A stretch of DNA of 64,000 nt, from contig NZ_JAFIBW010000001.1 in NCBI RefSeq assembly GCF_017833295.1, forward strand, positions 5,394,001 to 5,458,000, written 5' to 3'. Position 1 is the stretch's first letter. Each line of letters begins with the position of its first letter. The stretch comes from Methylobacterium sp. PvR107 (GTDB lineage Bacteria; Pseudomonadota; Alphaproteobacteria; Rhizobiales; Beijerinckiaceae). A program made the position numbers and the translations under genes. This document shows, one piece after another, positions 22,062 to 41,944 of the stretch. The notes under the pieces are model-generated. The model made no database searches, had not been told where the DNA came from, and was given only the letters and a program-made list of their open reading frames with translations.

Positions 22062-22430
22062 TCACGTCCGTCCGCGCCGGATGATCATCGGAGGCGGGGC
22101 GCTCGCGTCCTGAGCCTCCGAAGCGGCCAGATGGAACCTCGCCTTGGCGGCGAGCTCGCTCTGGAGGTTCTGACAGCGCTTGCGCACGTTGGCGATGTCG
22201 AACTGGGTCTGCATCTCCATCAATGTCTGCATCTCGACCCCGAACACCGTCTCGATCCGCAAGGCCAATTCCGGAGACAGCGCAGCCTCCTCATTGAGGA
22301 CATCGAACAGTGTTTGACGCGGCACATCGAGCAAGCCGGCCGCGTCCATGACGGTCAAGTTGCGCGGTTCGATGATATTACGCCGCACATATCCGCCTGG
22401 ATGGCCGGGATTTTCCAGTTTGTAGCTCAT
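22062..22430 (-). CDS. HigA-like antitoxin, without a visible HigB
   Basis: A 122-residue DNA-binding protein. The first 75 residues match the HigA type of XRE helix-turn-helix antitoxin: HPGGYVRRNII, VMDAAGLLDVPRQTLFDVLNEE and SPELALRIETVFG. HigA normally pairs with the RNase HigB, encoded just upstream; no such gene is seen up to 22800. The C-terminal 45 residues are an unrelated helical tail. It may be a lone transcription regulator or a leftover antitoxin. The ATG at 22430 is used; a GTG lies one codon earlier. Confidence 0.82.
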   Translation of the reverse strand: MSYKLENPGHPGGYVRRNIIEPRNLTVMDAAGLLDVPRQTLFDVLNEEAALSPELALRIETVFGVEMQTLMEMQTQFDIANVRKRCQNLQSELAAKARFHLAASEAQDASAPPPMIIRRGRT

Positions 22431-22767
22431 CACTATGATGCTCTCCCGTATTTTGCTCCAATCAAAACATCATGGTCCTGTCCGGATACTTAACCTTTGT
22501 CCGTAAAATCGTAATCATCCCATCGTCTCACGACATACCTTACATACGCAGCAACGCACTAAAGGTTACACGACACACTCATCGATATAGATGTCATCCT
22601 TTTTGGCTTTAATATAAATAAATATCGTGTTATTACACGTATATAGGCAAAAATTGCTATGAGAACATCGAATTTACAATTCCGCGGCACCTGTCAATGC
22701 GCGCGCATGGCCGTCACCATGCGGATCACCGCCGTCTAATCCACTGCATCGAGAACCAGCGGGGTCC
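22431..22767. other. AT-rich gap with palindromes upstream of higA-like gene
   Basis: This 337-bp stretch is far richer in A+T than its surroundings, especially 22490-22680. It has no convincing gene. CATCGATATAGATG (22580-22593) and CGTGT-TATT-ACACG (22626-22639) are dyads that could be operators, for example for the HigA-like protein. The composition fits a promoter area or a piece of acquired DNA. Confidence 0.5.
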
Positions 22768-22827
22768 ATGGACCGCGTTGCGGCGTCGTACGGCTTGACG
22801 CGGACAAACCTTAAGGCCAAGCTTATC

Positions 22828-23003
22828 GTCGACGGTTCCCTTCGGGGATCAAAAGGGAACGCGGTGAGGGGCTCGCCTCGAGGCCGCGGCTGTCCCCGCA
22901 ACTGTAAGCGGCGAGCCCTTCACCACCACGTCACTGGGTCGCTGACCCGGGAAGACGGTGCGAGGGCGGCGACCCGCGAGCCAGGAGACCTGCCGTCAGC
23001 CGT
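22828..23003 (+). ncRNA. cobalamin riboswitch
   Basis: The hallmarks of the adenosylcobalamin aptamer are present in order: a GC-rich opening stem, CTGTCCCCGCAACTGTAAGC (22890-22909) forming the core, and the B12 box GAGCCAGGAGACCTGCC (22978-22994). A strong hairpin at 23041-23058 (CGGGTGTC / GACGCCCG) may belong to the expression platform. It precedes the TonB-dependent receptor at 23289, so B12 should repress that receptor. Confidence 0.93.
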
Positions 23004-23222
23004 GGTCACACGCGAAACGCGCTGGGCGGGGTTGTCCTGGCGGGTGTCGAGACGCCCGTGCATCCGCGCGGTCGGCGAGGCCTCGTTCGCGGTGACGTGC
23101 CACAGCAAGCGCGCCCGCGACACCGATCCCGATGCCCGTCCTCACCGTATCGATCGCTTCCGGGGCCGCCACGCGCACTCACGCGCCTGTGCCCGCCGAG
23201 CTTTTGATGCGGCCGAGCAATT

Positions 23223-23240
23223 GTAATGTTATTACATTGC
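23223..23240 (+). promoter_or_regulatory. Zur-like operator
   Basis: GTAATGTTATTACATTGC is a near-perfect dyad (GTAATGT / ACATTGC) and agrees at 15 of 18 positions with the alphaproteobacterial Zur box GTAATGTAATAACATTAC, as I recall it. It lies between the riboswitch and the receptor start (23289), so a zinc-dependent repressor probably acts here, either on a second promoter or as a roadblock. Confidence 0.6.
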
Positions 23241-23288
23241 CTTTAGAACGGGTTGGCCGGCCCGCGCCGCGCATGGACCTTTCCTGCC

Positions 23289-25472
23289 ATGTCACCATCG
23301 ACCATCCGCCCGAGATCCGGCGGCAGGCCCGCACCGCTCTGCGGCGTGCTCCTCGCGCTCCTCGCGAGCCCGGCCGCCGCGCAGGACACCGTCACCCTCG
23401 ACCAGCTCTCGGTTGAGGGCGAGGACGGCACGGACCGTGCCGTCCCGAACAGCCTCAACCTGCGCACCCGCGACCGGACCGCGAGCCGGATCGGCCTGAC
23501 GCCCTTGGAGACGCCGGCCAGTCTCGACATCGTGTCGGGCGAGACCGCGCGGATGCGCGGCCAGGACACGATCGCCGAAGCCGTGACCCAGGACGCCACC
23601 GGCATCACAACGATTGCCGCTCCCGGCAACGGCAACGGCGCGTTCACGTCTCGCGGCTTCGCCGGCCCGAACTCGATCCAGCAGCTCTACGACGGCACGC
23701 GCTTCTACGTGGGCGCCAACACTGTCACCTTCCCGTTCGATACCTGGAACGTCGAGCGGATCGAGGTGCTGCGCGGGCCGTCCTCGGTGCTCTATGGCGA
23801 CGGCGCCATCGGCGGCGTCATCAACGTGGTGCCCAAGAAGCCGGTCTTCGTGCCGATCAACACTGCCCGCGCGGTGGTCGGCACCGACGGCGTCGCGCGG
23901 CTTGCCTTCGATTCCGGCGGTGGGATCGGCCAAGCGGAGTTCGGCAACACCTTCGCGTACCGCCTCAACGTCAGCGGCAACCGCGCCGATGGCTGGATCC
24001 GCCCCGAGGGCGATTTTCGTAACCTCGCGGTCTCGGCCGCCCTGCTGTTCCAGCCGAGCCCGGATCTCGCGTTCACGCTGAGTCACGATCTCGGCTACCA
24101 AGAGCCGGCCCGCTACTGGGGCACACCGCTGGTCGAAGGCCGGATCCCGGACCTGATCCGGTTCAACAACTACAACGTCCGCGACGCGAAGATCACCTGG
24201 GTCGACAACTGGACCCAGCTCAAGACCGAGTGGTCGCCCTCGGCCGACATCACGATCCGCAACACCGCCTACCGGCTGACCAGCCGGCGCCACTGGCTCG
24301 ATGTCGAGCAGTACACGTACAACCGCGGCACCGGGCTGGTGGACCGGGGCGACTACCTCGAGATCTATCACAGCCAGGAACAGGTCGGGGACCGGCTCGA
24401 CGCGACGTTCCGGGGCAGCCTCTTCGGCTTTGCCAACCAGTTCGTGGTCGGATTCGACGTGAACCACATCGATTTCCGGCACACCAACAACTTCTACTTC
24501 GACCAGAATACCAGCGTGCCGCTCACCGGCTACGATCTGGGCTACTTCCCGCAGAACGGACGGGCGCGGCCGGCCTACGCCACCCAGACGAGCCAGGCCT
24601 CGGTCTTCGCCGAGGACCGGCTGATCCTGTCGGACAGGCTGGCCTTCCTTACGGGCGTGCGCCTCGACGTGCCGACGCTGAACCGGGAGGATCTGCAGTC
24701 GGGATCGCGCTTCGAGAAGACCTACCACGCCCTCGGCTACCGGTTCGGCCTCGTCTACAACCCGACGCCGGACAGCGCGCTCTACGCCCAGTACAGTTTC
24801 GCCACCGATCCGGTGAACAGCCTGATCACGCTAAATCAGTCGCTGGCCGGATTCAAGCTCGCAACCGGCGATCAGGTCGAGATCGGCGCCAAGGGGCTGG
24901 CCTTCGACGGCGCCCTGGAATGGACAATCGCGGGTTACCGGATCGTCAAGGACAACCTGATCTCGGCTGTGCCGGGCCAGCCGACGCTGTCCACGCAGGT
25001 GGGACGGCAATCCTCGCAGGGCTTCGAGCTGGCGCTCGGCTGGCTTTTCGCGCCGGGCTGGCGGCTCGACGGCAACCTCGCGCTCCTGCATGCGCAATAC
25101 GACCGGTTCGATCAGACGGTGGCGGGCGCCACCGTTTCTTATGCCGGCAACCAGCCGATCGACGTGCCGGAGCGCGTGGCCAATCTCTGGCTGACCTGGG
25201 ATTTTGCGCGCGACTGGACCGCGCGGGTCGGGCTCCAGAACGTCGGGCAGGTCTACAGCGACTTCGGCAACATGGCGCGGCGCCCGGCCTACAACCTCGT
25301 CAACCTCGTGCTCGACCATCAGGTCTCGGCGGAGTCGCGGCTGTCGCTGCGGGTCTACAACCTGTTTGACAAGGTCTACGCGATCTCCGGCAACGCCGTG
25401 AACGGGGTCGGCACCAACTGGCTGCTCGGGCGGCCGCGCTCGGTCGAGGTCGCCTACACGGTGACGTGGTGA
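23289..25472 (+). CDS. TonB-dependent siderophore/metallophore-type receptor
   Basis: A 727-residue outer-membrane receptor of the TonB-dependent type. Signal peptide: residues about 1-34, ending ASPAAAQ. The plug domain has RIEVLRGPSSVLYGDGAIGGVINVVPKKP. The barrel ends in an aromatic (YTVTW), with RVYNLFDKVY near the end. Its plug resembles the FhuE/ferric-siderophore group more than classic BtuB. Upstream lie a cobalamin riboswitch and a Zur-like box; the PepSY gene follows with a 4-base overlap. Substrate may be B12, zinc or cobalt chelate; I cannot tell which. Start at 23289 is used rather than a TTG at 23253. Confidence 0.9.
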   Translation: MSPSTIRPRSGGRPAPLCGVLLALLASPAAAQDTVTLDQLSVEGEDGTDRAVPNSLNLRTRDRTASRIGLTPLETPASLDIVSGETARMRGQDTIAEAVTQDATGITTIAAPGNGNGAFTSRGFAGPNSIQQLYDGTRFYVGANTVTFPFDTWNVERIEVLRGPSSVLYGDGAIGGVINVVPKKPVFVPINTARAVVGTDGVARLAFDSGGGIGQAEFGNTFAYRLNVSGNRADGWIRPEGDFRNLAVSAALLFQPSPDLAFTLSHDLGYQEPARYWGTPLVEGRIPDLIRFNNYNVRDAKITWVDNWTQLKTEWSPSADITIRNTAYRLTSRRHWLDVEQYTYNRGTGLVDRGDYLEIYHSQEQVGDRLDATFRGSLFGFANQFVVGFDVNHIDFRHTNNFYFDQNTSVPLTGYDLGYFPQNGRARPAYATQTSQASVFAEDRLILSDRLAFLTGVRLDVPTLNREDLQSGSRFEKTYHALGYRFGLVYNPTPDSALYAQYSFATDPVNSLITLNQSLAGFKLATGDQVEIGAKGLAFDGALEWTIAGYRIVKDNLISAVPGQPTLSTQVGRQSSQGFELALGWLFAPGWRLDGNLALLHAQYDRFDQTVAGATVSYAGNQPIDVPERVANLWLTWDFARDWTARVGLQNVGQVYSDFGNMARRPAYNLVNLVLDHQVSAESRLSLRVYNLFDKVYAISGNAVNGVGTNWLLGRPRSVEVAYTVTW

Positions 25473-26926
25473 GGCGATCGCGGCGGCTCGGCAAGGCGGG
25501 CCGGCGCTTCCTGCTCCTGTTCCATCGCTGGTCCGGGATCACCGCCGGGTTGCTCTTTGCCTCATGGATCGGCTCCGGGCTGGTGATGCTCTACGTGCCG
25601 TTCCCGACGCTCACCGAGGCGGAGCGTCTGGCGCGGCTTCCGCCTGTCGCTTGGGAGCAGGTCGTGTTCGCGCCGGACGAGGCGCTCCGCGCCGGCGGCC
25701 TCGTGGGCGTCCCGGCAGCCTTCGACCTTGAGATGCAGGGCGTCGAGCCCGTCTACCGGATCGCCGGCCGCGATGGGCGGCAGGTGACGGTCTCGGCGCG
25801 CACCGGTTCGCGGCTCGGCCCGGTGACCCCCGACGCGGCCTTGAACCTCGCGGCCTCGGGGTTTCCGAACGCCCGCGTCGCACTGGTCGAGCGCGACCAG
25901 TGGACCGTCACAGCCCGGTACAACCCCCTGCGGCCCTTCCTGAAGGTCGCCCTCGGCGACACGGCCGGGACCGAACTCTACGTGTCGCAGGTCACCGGCG
26001 CGATCACCCTCGATACGACCCGGTTCGAGCGGGCCTGGAACTGGGTGGGCGCGGTGGCGCACTGGATCTACCTCACGCCGCTCCGCGCCCGTGCGGAGCT
26101 GTGGCGGACACTCCTGCTGTGGCTGTCGGGCTTCGCCGCCCTGGGGGCGGTGAGCGGGTTCGCGATCGGCCTCTGGCGCCTGCGACTCCGGCGCCGTTAT
26201 GCGGGGGGAGCCGTGACGCCCTATCGGGGGCTCGCCCGCTGGCACCACCTGTTCGGCCTCGCGGGCGGGATCGGGCTCAGCACCTTCATCCTCAGCGGCT
26301 GGATCTCGATGAACCCGAACCGCTGGTTCGCGTCGACCGCCGCACCCGACGAGATACGCACCGCCTATGCCGGCTCACCGCCCGCCCTCGGCCTCGACGC
26401 CGGAGCCTTGCGCGGTTTCGCCGACCCGGGGACCCAGGCGCTGCGCTTTGCCGCCATCGGCGGGTTCTGGTGGATCGTCGCCGACGCGCCGGACGGGGCG
26501 CGGACCCGCCGCGCGGACGATGGCGCTGCGCTGGCGTCCGACGCCATCGCAGCGGCCGCCGGCCGGGCCGTGCCCGGCGGTGTCGTGCGCGACGTGGGGC
26601 GCCTCACGGCGTTCGACACCTATTGGTACCCGCACGGAAGCGATCCGCGCCCGCTGCCGGTCCTGCGCGTCCGGTTCGACGACCCCGCCGCCACCTGGCT
26701 CCACATCGATCCGCGGGACGGGGCCATCCTCCAACGCCTGGACCGGTCCGGCCGGATCAACCGCTGGCTGTTCGACGCCGCTCACCGTCTCGACCTGCCG
26801 GGGCTGAGCAGCAGCCGCCCCCTGCACGACGCCGCCCAATGGATCCTGAACCTTCTGGCGGCGGGGATCGTGGGAACGGGCATTGTCGCGGGCTGGCGCA
26901 GAGTACGCCGGACCCTGTCGGCCTAG
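25469..26926 (+). CDS. PepSY-domain inner-membrane protein
   Basis: A 485-residue PepSY-associated membrane protein. Four membrane segments are seen near residues 20-40, 210-235, 265-285 and 455-475; two periplasmic parts carry PepSY-like folds (AALNLAASGFPNARVALVE, LYVSQVTGAITLDTTRF, TWLHIDPRDGAIL). His residues at segment edges (LLFHRWSG, VAHWIYL, RWHHLFGLAGG, AAHRLDLPG) fit a haem-binding or reductase role, as in the FpvG-type reductases of siderophore uptake. It starts at a GTG that overlaps the receptor stop (GTGA), so translation is coupled. Confidence 0.85.
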   Translation: MRRSRRLGKAGRRFLLLFHRWSGITAGLLFASWIGSGLVMLYVPFPTLTEAERLARLPPVAWEQVVFAPDEALRAGGLVGVPAAFDLEMQGVEPVYRIAGRDGRQVTVSARTGSRLGPVTPDAALNLAASGFPNARVALVERDQWTVTARYNPLRPFLKVALGDTAGTELYVSQVTGAITLDTTRFERAWNWVGAVAHWIYLTPLRARAELWRTLLLWLSGFAALGAVSGFAIGLWRLRLRRRYAGGAVTPYRGLARWHHLFGLAGGIGLSTFILSGWISMNPNRWFASTAAPDEIRTAYAGSPPALGLDAGALRGFADPGTQALRFAAIGGFWWIVADAPDGARTRRADDGAALASDAIAAAAGRAVPGGVVRDVGRLTAFDTYWYPHGSDPRPLPVLRVRFDDPAATWLHIDPRDGAILQRLDRSGRINRWLFDAAHRLDLPGLSSSRPLHDAAQWILNLLAAGIVGTGIVAGWRRVRRTLSA

Positions 26927-27092: not shown

Positions 27093-29237
27093 TCAGAACC
27101 GCGCCGTCAGGAACAGCCGGACGTTCCGCCCGGGCAGCAGGATCTCGTCCTTCTTGAACGAGGTCGAATTGCGGATGTCGTCGTTCAGCAGGTTGCGGCC
27201 CTGGAGCCCGAGGGTGATCTCGCTCGCGCCGTAGACCGCCGGATCGACGGCCTTGGTGTAGCTGACCTCGGCGCGTAGGTCGTTGTAGCCGGGTGTCGGC
27301 GTCTCGAACACCGCAGTCGCGTCGTGGCTGAAGGCGTGGAGCAGGTTCACGCGGGCGAACCACCCGTCGGCCTGCAGGTAGAGGCCGCCGCCGAGGCGGT
27401 AGGGCGGGATCCGCGGCACGTTGGTGCCGTCGTCGAACTTGGCGCGGACGAAGTCGAACTGCGCCTCGATGCCGGCGAAGCCGTTGCCCACCGGGATGAG
27501 ATCGTACTGGCCGATGATCTCGGCGCCGTAAAAGGTGGCGTTCTGCTGCTGGTAGACGATCTGGCGGTTGTCGGTCCCGGTGCCGCAGGAGGCGAAGTCG
27601 TCGTCGCAGGTCAGTCCCGTGTAGTTGCGGTAGATGAAGCCGGTGTAGCGCGTGTAGTAGCCGGTGGCGTCGAGGCGCAGCGGTCCCTCCGCGCGCCGGA
27701 TGCTGGCCTCCACCGTGCGGGCGCGCTCCTTTTTCAGATCCGGATTGCCGATCTCGAAGGTCGCGGTGGCGTCGTGGGGCCCCTGCGAGAACAGCTCGTA
27801 GCCGGTCGGCCCGCGCTCGACATAGGAGCCGGTGAGGCTCGCCACGAAGCCGTAGGGCAGGTCCTGCAGGGCGCCGATGCTGGCACTCTTCGGGGCGAAG
27901 CGCCGGGTCCGGGCGTACTGGAACGGCTCCTGACCGTCGACCGGCACGTAATCGGCCGGAAACTGCGCGGCCGTGCTCGACAGCCGGTCGACCTCGTAGC
28001 GCCCGGCGGCCTGCAGCCGCGTGCCGGGGCGCAGCTCCAGCTCCTCGAACAGGTAGACCGCGTTGGCGCGGGACTCGGTCTTCGGCAGGAACGATTCGAG
28101 CTGCGTGTTGATCACGCGCCGGGCCGACTGGAAGCCGAGCGCGCCGGAGAGTTTTCCGAGTTCCGTGAAGACCGGGACGTGCTGGAGTTCCAGACGGCCT
28201 TCCGCCTCGCGGTTCTTGAAGATCGCCTGGACGCCCTCGATCCCGTCCTCCCCGATGCCGACCTCGTTGTGGCGGTAGACCGAGTAGCCCGCCCAGTAGC
28301 GGATCACCTCGAAGGGTCCGTCGAGCGGGCGGTACTCGCCCCGCGACAGGACACGGTCCTGGTTGGGGGTCAGACGGGTCCGGTCCTGCTCGGCCACGCC
28401 GCCGGGGATCGCGTAGACCGCGTCGTAGTGGCTGAAGGAAATGCCCACGAAGCCGCGGTCGCCGATCGCCGAGATGCCGACCGCGCCGCCCTGCGATTCG
28501 TTGTACGAGTTGCGCTGGATCCCACCGGGAATCGCGTAGCTGTCGTTGGCGGTCTTGAAGCCGTCGGCATGGACCGCGATGCCGTCGCCGCCGGCATCCA
28601 CCGTGGCGGCGCCGAGCCGGCCATTATCCACACTGGAGAAGCCGCTGGTGACTTGGCCCTGCACCCCGTTCGCCGGGATGAAGGTCGGCACCCGGTTGTT
28701 GTCGGCCGAGACGACGCCGCCGATGGCTCCCGAGCCGTAGCGCAGGGTCGCGGGACCGCGGATCACCTCGATCCGATCGGCGACCAGCGGATTGATCGGG
28801 ACGGCGTGGTCCTCGCCGAGATCCGACACGCCGCCATTGACGATGCCGTTCTCCTGGATCCGCACACGGGCATTGTCGAGGCCGCGAATGATCGGCCGGG
28901 ACGCCGCGCCCGGCGCGTAAGTCGTGCCGGAGATGCCGGGTCGGTCGAACAGGGCATCACCCAGTGTCCGGGGCTGATCGCGCGCGATCTGCTCCTGCGT
29001 CACCACTGTGATCGGCGAGAACGAGTTGGTCGCCACCGGCAGGATCCCGATCGGTACCGAGAGATCCGGAACCGAGGCGGTGCGTGGTGCCTGGATCGGG
29101 CTCGGGCTGGTGACGCTGATCTCGTCGAGCGCGACGGCTTGCTGAGCGCGCGCATGGGACGGCGCCATGAGGCCAAAGCCGACGGTCGAGGACAGGACCG
29201 TCCCGGCCAGGAAGCCGAAGGGGCGTGCGAGGGGCAT
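27093..29237 (-). CDS. ZnuD-like TonB-dependent zinc receptor
   Basis: A 714-residue TonB-dependent receptor. The signal peptide ends at about residue 31 (PSHARAQQ). The plug shows features of the ZnuD group: SRPIIRGLDNARVRIQENG, VSDLGEDHAVPINPL and RIEVIRGPATLRYGSGAIGGVV. The barrel carries YELFSQGPHDATATFEIGN and ends with NSTSFKKDEILLPGRN and a terminal Phe. ZnuD proteins import zinc or haem and are usually repressed by Zur; a Zur-like box is found 10-28 bases before this start. No His-rich loop is seen, so binding would differ from Neisseria ZnuD. Confidence 0.88.
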   Translation of the reverse strand: MPLARPFGFLAGTVLSSTVGFGLMAPSHARAQQAVALDEISVTSPSPIQAPRTASVPDLSVPIGILPVATNSFSPITVVTQEQIARDQPRTLGDALFDRPGISGTTYAPGAASRPIIRGLDNARVRIQENGIVNGGVSDLGEDHAVPINPLVADRIEVIRGPATLRYGSGAIGGVVSADNNRVPTFIPANGVQGQVTSGFSSVDNGRLGAATVDAGGDGIAVHADGFKTANDSYAIPGGIQRNSYNESQGGAVGISAIGDRGFVGISFSHYDAVYAIPGGVAEQDRTRLTPNQDRVLSRGEYRPLDGPFEVIRYWAGYSVYRHNEVGIGEDGIEGVQAIFKNREAEGRLELQHVPVFTELGKLSGALGFQSARRVINTQLESFLPKTESRANAVYLFEELELRPGTRLQAAGRYEVDRLSSTAAQFPADYVPVDGQEPFQYARTRRFAPKSASIGALQDLPYGFVASLTGSYVERGPTGYELFSQGPHDATATFEIGNPDLKKERARTVEASIRRAEGPLRLDATGYYTRYTGFIYRNYTGLTCDDDFASCGTGTDNRQIVYQQQNATFYGAEIIGQYDLIPVGNGFAGIEAQFDFVRAKFDDGTNVPRIPPYRLGGGLYLQADGWFARVNLLHAFSHDATAVFETPTPGYNDLRAEVSYTKAVDPAVYGASEITLGLQGRNLLNDDIRNSTSFKKDEILLPGRNVRLFLTARF

Positions 29238-29247
29238 CGAGACTCAC

Positions 29248-29265
29248 ATATTGTTATATCGTTTC
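29248..29265 (-). promoter_or_regulatory. weak Zur-like box upstream of the ZnuD-like gene
   Basis: On the minus strand GAAACGATATAACAATAT agrees at about 12 of 18 positions with the recalled alphaproteobacterial Zur box. It sits 10 bases upstream of the ATG. A second imperfect dyad, GTTACATCGTTGCAAC, lies near 29330-29345. The match alone is weak; the ZnuD-type gene makes it more credible. Confidence 0.4.
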
Positions 29266-29450
29266 ATTGTTGCGGTGCTACCGTCCGACGCAAGGGATAA
29301 TCCAGCCGGAAACCGACAGCCGAGAGAAACGTTACATCGTTGCAACAGGCGGTCGATGCGCGGTGAGTTGGACCGGCGACGAGCGCGATCAGGCAGCGGG
29401 ACGTGTGAGCCAGACAGAGGCGACGTCAGATCGGAGGATCATCCGGCTTG

Positions 29451-29819: not shown

Positions 29820-30446
29820 TCAGACCGGCAAACCCTCCGTCTCGTCTTCGGCCTCGATCTCGGCGTCGGCCTCGGTCGCCTGACCGGATGCACCTGCCGC
29901 CTCGGCCAGACCGCGGGCGGCCTTGCGCAGGAGCTTGCGCAGGCGGCGGCGGTCGGTCTTGTCGAGGTGGTCGAGCAGCTCGGCCTCGACCTCCTCCTGA
30001 ATTTGCTCGATCGCCTCGGCCTTGGCCAAGCCCGCCTCGGTGAGCTGGACCCGCACCACGCGGCCGTCGCCCGATTCGGCCCGGCGCTCAACGATGCCGA
30101 GGGCCGCGAGCCGGGTCACGGTTTTCGAGGCGGTCGGGGGCCGCACGCGAAGCAGCGCCGCGAGGTCGCCCATGGTCATCGTGTCGGCCGCGGCCAGGGC
30201 CTGAACCACCTGCTCCTGCCCGGCGAACAGCCCGAGCTTGGCCAAACGGTCGCCGGTGCGGGCCCGATGCAGGCGCGCCGCCTGCACGAGCGCCCAGCCG
30301 ACGGACCGGACACCCGGCGGCCGCATCCTCTTGGAGGACAGATTCGGGGTCGCCCCATCCCCATCCTGACGATCGCGTTTATGCTTGTCGCCCACCGGTG
30401 CGCCCGAGTTCGTGCCGGCGGCCGCCGGATGATCCTGAATCTGCAC
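29820..30446 (-). CDS. MarR family transcriptional regulator
   Basis: A 208-residue winged-helix regulator. The MarR core runs about residues 50-150: VVQALAAADTMTMGDLAALLRVRPPTASKTVTRLAALGIVERR gives the recognition helix, and SGDGRVVRVQLTEAG the wing. The C-terminal 50 residues are acidic low complexity. The GTG at 30446 gives a 40-residue polar N-terminal tail; the internal ATG at 30323 is a shorter choice. No target is evident: both neighbours are unrelated and no operator is recognised. Confidence 0.85.
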   Translation of the reverse strand: MQIQDHPAAAGTNSGAPVGDKHKRDRQDGDGATPNLSSKRMRPPGVRSVGWALVQAARLHRARTGDRLAKLGLFAGQEQVVQALAAADTMTMGDLAALLRVRPPTASKTVTRLAALGIVERRAESGDGRVVRVQLTEAGLAKAEAIEQIQEEVEAELLDHLDKTDRRRLRKLLRKAARGLAEAAGASGQATEADAEIEAEDETEGLPV

Positions 30447-41593: not shown

Positions 41594-41785
41594 CCAGCGG
41601 TGTCCTCAAATTTCGATCGGGCGGAGAACCGACGTGGCGGTCCCCCCTCCACCCGCGTCCGGCATATCGGTCGCGACAGGCGCTAGGCAAGCACCGGAGG
41701 TCCGCAGGGGTTCCGCACAACGCCATCACGGCCTGGGCTCGCCCGGGTGTGCCCTCCTGGCCGCACGATCGTTCAGGCCGGTGAG

Positions 41786-41817
41786 AAAAAGGCCCCGCCC
41801 GGGATCGGGCAGGGCCT
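41786..41817 (-). terminator. Rho-independent terminator
   Basis: On the minus strand AGGCCCTGCCCG / CGGGCGGGGCCT is a 12-base stem (one mismatch) with a 4-base loop, followed by TTTTTC. It should end a leftward transcript that begins to the right of 41820. The only candidate gene there is the short frame at 41855-41944, and the promoter must lie before 42033. Confidence 0.8.
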
Positions 41818-41854
41818 TGAAGTCGAAGGGAGGAAACGCCCGCCATGGGCACAT

Positions 41855-41944
41855 TCACGTCTGCAAGTCGCGCGCCAATTCGTTTTCGCGGCCTGAAAGG
41901 CCATGGCCCGGACGGTGATGGGCCGGAAAGACTCCGTTAACCAT
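41855..41944 (-). CDS. candidate small protein of 29 residues
   Basis: A 30-codon frame starting ATG GTT AAC and ending 37 bases before a strong terminator. The peptide (VFPAHHRPGHGLSGRENE near its middle) is hydrophilic and His-rich. The main support is the terminator, which needs a leftward transcript here. There is no clear ribosome site and I do not know homologues. The alternative is a non-coding RNA in the same place. Confidence 0.35.
   Translation of the reverse strand: MVNGVFPAHHRPGHGLSGRENELARDLQT

Follow-up and report, generated by a model that had tools for sequence, protein, structure and literature searches.

The window analysed here is a 64-kb stretch of the 6.36-Mb one-contig genome of Methylobacterium sp. 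PvR107. It carries a gene for a TonB-dependent receptor, which is preceded by a cobalamin riboswitch and then by a dyad resembling the operator of the zinc repressor Zur. A PepSY-type gene overlaps the receptor stop and encodes the probable operon partner of the receptor (Table 1). The receptor groups among those of Methylobacterium, with M. fujisawaense as its nearest relative at 93% identity. Both switches are kept in many related species, a hint that the receptor supports nutrition with cobalt/B12 as well as with zinc. A first-pass annotation had placed a full aptamer at 22828-23003, a Zur-like dyad at 23223-23240 and the receptor start at 23289. The start is confirmed, the aptamer is recovered with somewhat wider limits by RF00174, and the dyad GTAATGTTATTACATTGC is present at its claimed place. 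The register in which it aligns with the znuA boxes is 19 bp long and begins 3 bp earlier.

Table 1. Features of the receptor locus and its surroundings (window coordinates).
Feature	Position	Strand	Details
HigA-type antitoxin gene	22062-22433	-	
Candidate promoter P1	22795-22823	+	TTGACG (22795-22800), 17 nt, CAAGCT (22818-22823); directly before the aptamer
Cobalamin riboswitch aptamer	22816-23011	+	RF00174, 131.5 bits (gathering score 31.5); model positions 1-189, complete
Expression platform, probable	23002-23103	+	GTGGTCACACGCGAA (23002-23016) can pair with TTCGCGGTGACGTGCCAC (23086-23103)
Zur box, predicted	23220-23238	+	19-bp dyad ATTGTAATGTTATTACATT; znuA-only position weight matrix (PWM), Paracoccus denitrificans PWM, conservation in relatives
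Candidate promoter P2	23221-23249	+	-35-like TTGTAA (23221-23226) inside the box; -10-like TTTAGA (23242-23247, spacer 15 nt) or TAGAAC (23244-23249, spacer 17 nt)
TonB-dependent receptor, siderophore (FhuA/FoxA) type	23289-25472	+	727 aa; ATG 23289, stop 25472; Pfam plug and barrel
PepSY/PepSY_TM protein	25466-26926	+	Overlaps receptor stop; PF03413 19.3 bits, below cut-off 24
ZnuD-like TonB receptor, convergent	27093-29237	-	NF038289, 274.1 bits
Second Zur-type box, before the ZnuD-like receptor	29250-29268	-	14.0 bits with the znuA PWM
MarR-family gene	29820-30446		Upstream of the znuD-like gene

The dyad is recognized by two motifs. The first was derived from 30 genomes, the own one and 29 congeners, by taking about 300 bp ahead of znuA in each; they are the best of the 68 genomes in which znuA was matched, out of 69 searched. 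Unsupervised palindromic expectation-maximization on these upstream regions yields AATGTAACAnTGTTACATT with 32 bits. The PWM trained on znuA only ranks the dyad as the top site of the window with 23.9 bits. The best non-overlapping runner-up is the box in the ZnuD-like promoter, and the next site scores 6.6 bits. The same first two sites are returned by three re-trained znuA PWMs, including one without the own genome and one from 11 distant congeners alone. The second motif comes from the five Zur sites reported for P. denitrificans in the available part of PMC5387054, including its Table 7. Its PWM also ranks the dyad first in the window, with 25.9 bits, and the next independent site is again the box before the ZnuD-like gene (20.3 bits); the leave-one-out scores of the five sites themselves are 23.3-29.0 bits. 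Of 30 regions upstream of znuD-like genes in the genus, 25 score at least 12 bits with the znuA PWM. The pattern TGTAAYNNNRTTACA was written to fit both the dyad and the znuA box and is a specificity check, no independent test. It has exactly two perfect sites in the 6.36-Mb genome, namely these two, with about 0.04 expected from base composition; allowing one mismatch adds two more genome sites, which is the level of the reversed-pattern control. By two independent motifs, the dyad is well founded as a Zur-like box, and the label given in the first-pass annotation is upheld at the level of sequence.

Only two Fur-family proteins are found in the genome. One is Irr (213 bits, above its cut-off). 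The other is a Zur-like protein (L032), for which Zur is the best NCBIfam match with 111.3 bits, short of the strict cut-off of 167, and its gene adjoins that of an AztA-like zinc ABC ATPase. The dyad might instead be bound by Irr, by the MarR-family protein encoded upstream of the znuD-like gene or by some further factor, and the receptor would then lie outside the Zur regulon. The MarR-family protein does resemble a zinc-dependent AdcR-type model, weakly, at 28.6 bits against a cut-off of 175. However, the same motif stands before znuA, before znuD-like genes and, in a zinc island of Methylobacterium sp. R2-1 (see below), with a COG0523 gene, and the dyad matches the five published P. denitrificans sites. 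We regard control by such another regulator as improbable.

The order of riboswitch and box is widely conserved. We compared 80 receptor loci, the best 80 of 419 relatives, which belong to Methylobacteriaceae and to two metagenome-assembled genomes labelled Beijerinckiaceae. In 76 of them a B12-box pattern lies ahead of the receptor. Rfam confirms it directly in five of the 76 (L222, L251, L261, L273, L277), and in a genus search RF00174 precedes many of the others, among the matches listed, not each of which was checked. Two of the remaining four loci (L231, L239) are cut by contig ends, and the other two (L270, L278) are without an RF00174 match. Between aptamer and gene, the znuA motif reaches at least 12 bits in 53 of the 76 riboswitch-bearing loci. 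Within Methylobacterium, strains of M. fujisawaense and M. mesophilicum (L199 and L211) are examples with this arrangement. Outside the genus, Enterovirga aerilata has the riboswitch together with a box of 23.1 bits. Across 19 aligned close species the core of the dyad hardly varies, in contrast to the diverged linker before it. According to the first-pass annotation, a box not conserved in relatives that keep riboswitch and receptor would speak against its reading; this is mostly not the case, since the order is kept in those 53 loci, though 21 riboswitch-bearing loci are without a box even at 5 bits.

These counts also bear on the thought that an AT-rich dyad arose by chance between riboswitch and gene. 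A first loose pattern gave it some room: it matched the window 5 times where 0.94 matches were expected, and as many turned up in 3 of 100 shuffles. But dinucleotide shuffles of the interval reach 12 bits in 2 of 7600 cases against the 53 of 76 loci, and 56 of the 58 PWM matches of at least 12 bits over the 558 kb of the 80 loci fall within the 560 bp before the receptor. At sequence level chance is rejected, and its probability is negligible.

The riboswitch itself is one of three cobalamin riboswitches found in the genome, each before an uptake-type gene. Of the other two, one precedes another TonB receptor and one a CbtA-type cobalt transporter, which scores 242.9 bits (above cut-off) and is itself preceded by a short open reading frame that looks like CbtB. 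The probable expression platform has an 18-nt core, TTCGCGGTGACGTGCCAC, found exactly in 71 and with at most two mismatches in all 76 of the riboswitch-bearing loci. A consensus fold of 39 sequences by alifold pairs this core with a segment at the 3' end of the aptamer. The platform stem is absent from the window's own minimum-free-energy fold, which is not unusually stable (z 0.77), and no intrinsic terminator is found in 22700-23300. The same core also lies 3' of the riboswitch of the different own-genome TonB receptor (L034) and after that of a TonB receptor in a relative of another genus (L195). In two Methylorubrum loci, a match to RF00519 (suhB/mmgR sRNA) lies just upstream of the cobalamin riboswitch (L222:954-1028 and L251:2030-2105), and the window has an RF00519 match of its own at 41777-41857 on the minus strand. 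In E. aerilata, the receptor is preceded by a back-to-back pair of cobalamin riboswitches on opposite strands (L277:1434-1945).

Two candidate promoters flank the riboswitch. In the 19 aligned species, TTGAC of P1 is invariant (19/19) and a CCAAGCT-like block is mostly kept, while other upstream sequence has diverged. P2 would overlap the box. Among the 56 box-bearing sequences, TTG(T/C)AA is found inside the box, and T, T and A occur at box positions 22, 24 and 25 in 75%, 89% and 73%. In Caulobacter crescentus, repressed genes have their Zur operators over the -10 element or between -10 and -35, according to the available part of PMC4176598. The distance from the platform core to the gene has a median of 240 nt with a box (n=55) and of 134 nt without (n=21, range 27-292), where gene starts are those of tblastn matches, not verified start codons. 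The two ranges overlap, but a box tends to be accompanied by additional linker, as would be the case with an inserted promoter.

From this arrangement we infer two promoters in series, and we think it likely that the second, Zur-gated one acts after the riboswitch as one arm of an OR gate on a shared metal-complex receptor. P1 transcripts would run directly into the riboswitch, be shut off when B12 is plentiful and pass when B12 is low. P2 would lie between platform and start codon, with the Zur operator over its -35 element and spacer. Zinc-loaded Zur would block it; when zinc is short, Zur would leave and P2 would make a transcript without the riboswitch, therefore plentiful B12 would not prevent synthesis of the receptor. 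One shortage, of B12 or of zinc, would thereby suffice to induce it. Control in series, as pictured in the first-pass annotation, keeps its order of elements and is refined in its mechanism: the box apparently belongs to a second promoter after the riboswitch, therefore the two signals may act on different transcripts.

Several observations weigh against this reading. A scan of 22700-23300 with the sigma-70 consensus finds neither P1 nor P2 nor any other promoter, therefore both are deduced from conservation and position as candidates. Zur bound at P2 could also stop read-through from P1. The box is missing in 22 of 79 scored loci at a 5-bit threshold and so is not essential to the receptor. 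It is also absent from the linkers of six plasmid homologues with a riboswitch and from three loci of other genera that have the riboswitch (L187, L188, L195). Finally, the divergent zur promoter shows, in 30 of 30 cases, TG[AT]TACACTGTAACA or a near variant of it. This dyad is related to the box but different and receives low znuA PWM scores (-0.2 to 13.8 bits), a point against a single uniform motif.

The main mechanistic rival of the OR gate is a roadblock. Zur at the box would halt the polymerase coming from P1, there would be no useful P2, and the receptor would be made only when B12 and zinc are both short, as in an AND gate. The box does lie about 400 nt downstream of P1, and there is no consensus sigma-70 site near it. 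On the other hand, a TnTA block is kept just after the box, the linker is longer where a box is present, the Zur operators of C. crescentus are located in promoters, and a box without a riboswitch precedes a paralogue in R2-1 (L270). We take the roadblock to be unlikely.

A natural exchange of the two switches counts in favour of the OR gate with its Zur-gated P2. Methylobacterium sp. R2-1 has at least three copies of the receptor. Two of them (L261, L030) have the riboswitch and are without a box, and the third, L270, has a box (13.7 bits) and no RF00174 match. L270 (region L192) sits in a compact zinc island. There the receptor is accompanied by an ABC-2 system, and the island further holds a zur paralogue (86.9 bits, less than the strict cut-off), genes for a ZnuD-like receptor and a COG0523 GTPase, and a gene whose WD40 match stays under the threshold. 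Motif matches of 13-26 bits are found there before the ZnuD-like, receptor and COG0523 genes. This box-only copy links the receptor family with zinc by evidence that does not involve the riboswitch. Its tree sister, L273 of Methylorubrum thiocyanatum, shows the reverse, a riboswitch without a box. The ABC-2 permease of R2-1 is found in 3 of 385 genomes in a class-wide search. In another congener (G061, L193), a second zur-like, a second znuA-like and a ZnuD-like gene lie within about 5 kb.

All nine loci named Methylorubrum are without a box at the 5-bit threshold. On a quick receptor tree the box label requires 6 changes against 19.4 after shuffling, and none of 500 shuffles is as low; judged on this tree, the pattern is gain or loss by clade, not noise. 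Eight plasmid homologues were examined farther out. The riboswitch lies right before the receptor in those of Paracoccus (two), Bradyrhizobium and Cupriavidus, precedes an adjoining ABC operon instead in two from Azospirillum, and is lacking in those of Burkholderia and Comamonas. Two other relatives outside the genus (L189, L190) have neither riboswitch nor box. Riboswitch control is wider than the box, and the box looks like a later addition; the znuA-trained PWM may miss boxes of other lineages. In Azospirillum lipoferum, Zur-like matches (16-17 bits) lie about 180 bp upstream of the riboswitch (L179:567-590) and possibly serve a divergent gene. A class relative (L191) has an 18.1-bit match 458 bp before the receptor and no riboswitch. 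We put forward only tentatively the fuller scenario, in which the Zur-gated internal promoter created an OR gate by insertion, was gained or lost repeatedly in Methylobacteriaceae and serves a shared importer of cobalt and zinc complexes.

The receptor scores 234.5 bits with TIGR01783, the model of siderophore-type TonB-dependent receptors, above its curated cut-off of 223.5. With the B12 receptor model TIGR01779 it reaches 68.3 bits, far under the cut-off of 599.7. The AlphaFold model is mediocre, with a mean predicted local distance difference test score of 61.7 and a plug mostly below 50. Foldseek ranks PiuA and FhuA first, and VIA-align gives FhuA 25.9, FoxA 25.4 and BtuB 24.0; the comparison only confirms the class of siderophore-type TonB receptors. 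The closest solved sequence is 9rvq/9rvx (304.6 bits), whose entry name is just 'TonB-dependent receptor'. The ligand is probably a cobalt/zinc complex, and receptor and PepSY partner would most likely import a metal complex usable for both metals. Import of a metal complex had been suggested in the first-pass annotation, and the siderophore-type receptor and the zinc-island paralogue both fit it. Its other suggestion, that cobalamin is spared under zinc shortage, gains no direct support from these sequences. The receptor may otherwise carry corrinoids or cobalt only, with Zur control offsetting zinc-cobalt crosstalk and no import of zinc. That the riboswitch is wider than the box, as in the plasmid homologues of Paracoccus, Bradyrhizobium and Cupriavidus, is in line with this, and so is IcuA, another TonB receptor, which raises cobalt uptake in Methylorubrum extorquens AM1 (available parts of PMC2732905 and PMC2773004). 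However, a score so far below the B12-receptor cut-off and a zinc-island paralogue with a box and without a riboswitch speak against it, and we consider a cargo of corrinoids or cobalt only rather doubtful.

Several neighbours of the receptor recur in relatives. It is followed by a protein with an N-terminus similar to that of the PepSY-type protein, judged by eye, in 62 of the 80 loci; close homologues of this protein carry PF03929. 'PepSY domain' proteins also lie 3' of the receptor in the Bradyrhizobium and Comamonas plasmid homologues. The convergent receptor is called ZnuD-like only, its score with NF038289 being below the strict cut-off of 950. Among the 19 genomes whose receptors are closest, the own genome included, 16 have the two receptors near each other on one contig. 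On the other side, an AT-rich stretch between the HigA-type antitoxin gene and P1 contains the dyad CGTGTTATTACACG (22626-22639), perhaps the operator of the antitoxin gene. As a conserved operator it is rejected; among 30 receptor loci such a dyad more than 400 bp upstream is found in the own one alone.

Inside cells zinc and cobalt are competitors, and the supply of B12 and that of zinc are commonly regarded as distinct regulons. Methylobacteria depend on B12 enzymes when they grow on methanol, therefore a link between zinc and B12 would be physiologically relevant. With one receptor wired to both signals and natural relatives wired to one, a direct test is at hand of whether one outer-membrane channel serves both metals. 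The same comparison would show how control changes once a promoter lies behind a riboswitch.

Both kinds of control are known from other TonB receptors. Some under cobalamin riboswitches are predicted for cobalt, for example in Novosphingobium (review PMC7689651). Here likewise the aptamer precedes the gene of a TonB receptor that is not a classical B12 receptor. Unlike those systems, for which the available part of that review mentions no Zur operator, the present locus has a Zur box and a probable second promoter. Zur-repressed TonB receptors are ZnuK, ZnuL and ZnuM of C. crescentus (available part of PMC4176598). PA2911 of Pseudomonas aeruginosa is Zur-regulated too, with chelated zinc or cobalamin proposed as cargo (available part of PMC4542158). 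The present receptor likewise stands behind a predicted Zur site. The riboswitch-less R2-1 paralogue followed by an ABC-2 system recalls C. crescentus znuK, which adjoins znuGHI (PMC4176598, same part). The same parts of both reports mention no riboswitch for these receptors, in contrast to the locus described here.

From the same bacterial family, M. extorquens AM1, comes IcuAB, in which IcuA is a TonB receptor for cobalt and IcuB a 243-aa COG5266 protein (PMC2732905 and PMC2773004, parts available); the partner here is PepSY-like. The published icuAB primers have no match with at most two mismatches in the loci compared and none at gene ends, with one exception in L268, where the forward primer matches with 2 mismatches about 155 bp inside the match. 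Orthology with IcuA is rejected on primer and partner-gene evidence only, the sequences not being compared directly. The same parts of these papers name a second candidate of AM1, META2_0097. In the open-licence PMC literature, no paper was found that reports a Zur site and a cobalamin riboswitch before one gene. Riboswitch-controlled and Zur-controlled TonB receptors are each known already, therefore their combination before this receptor is a new variant of known parts.

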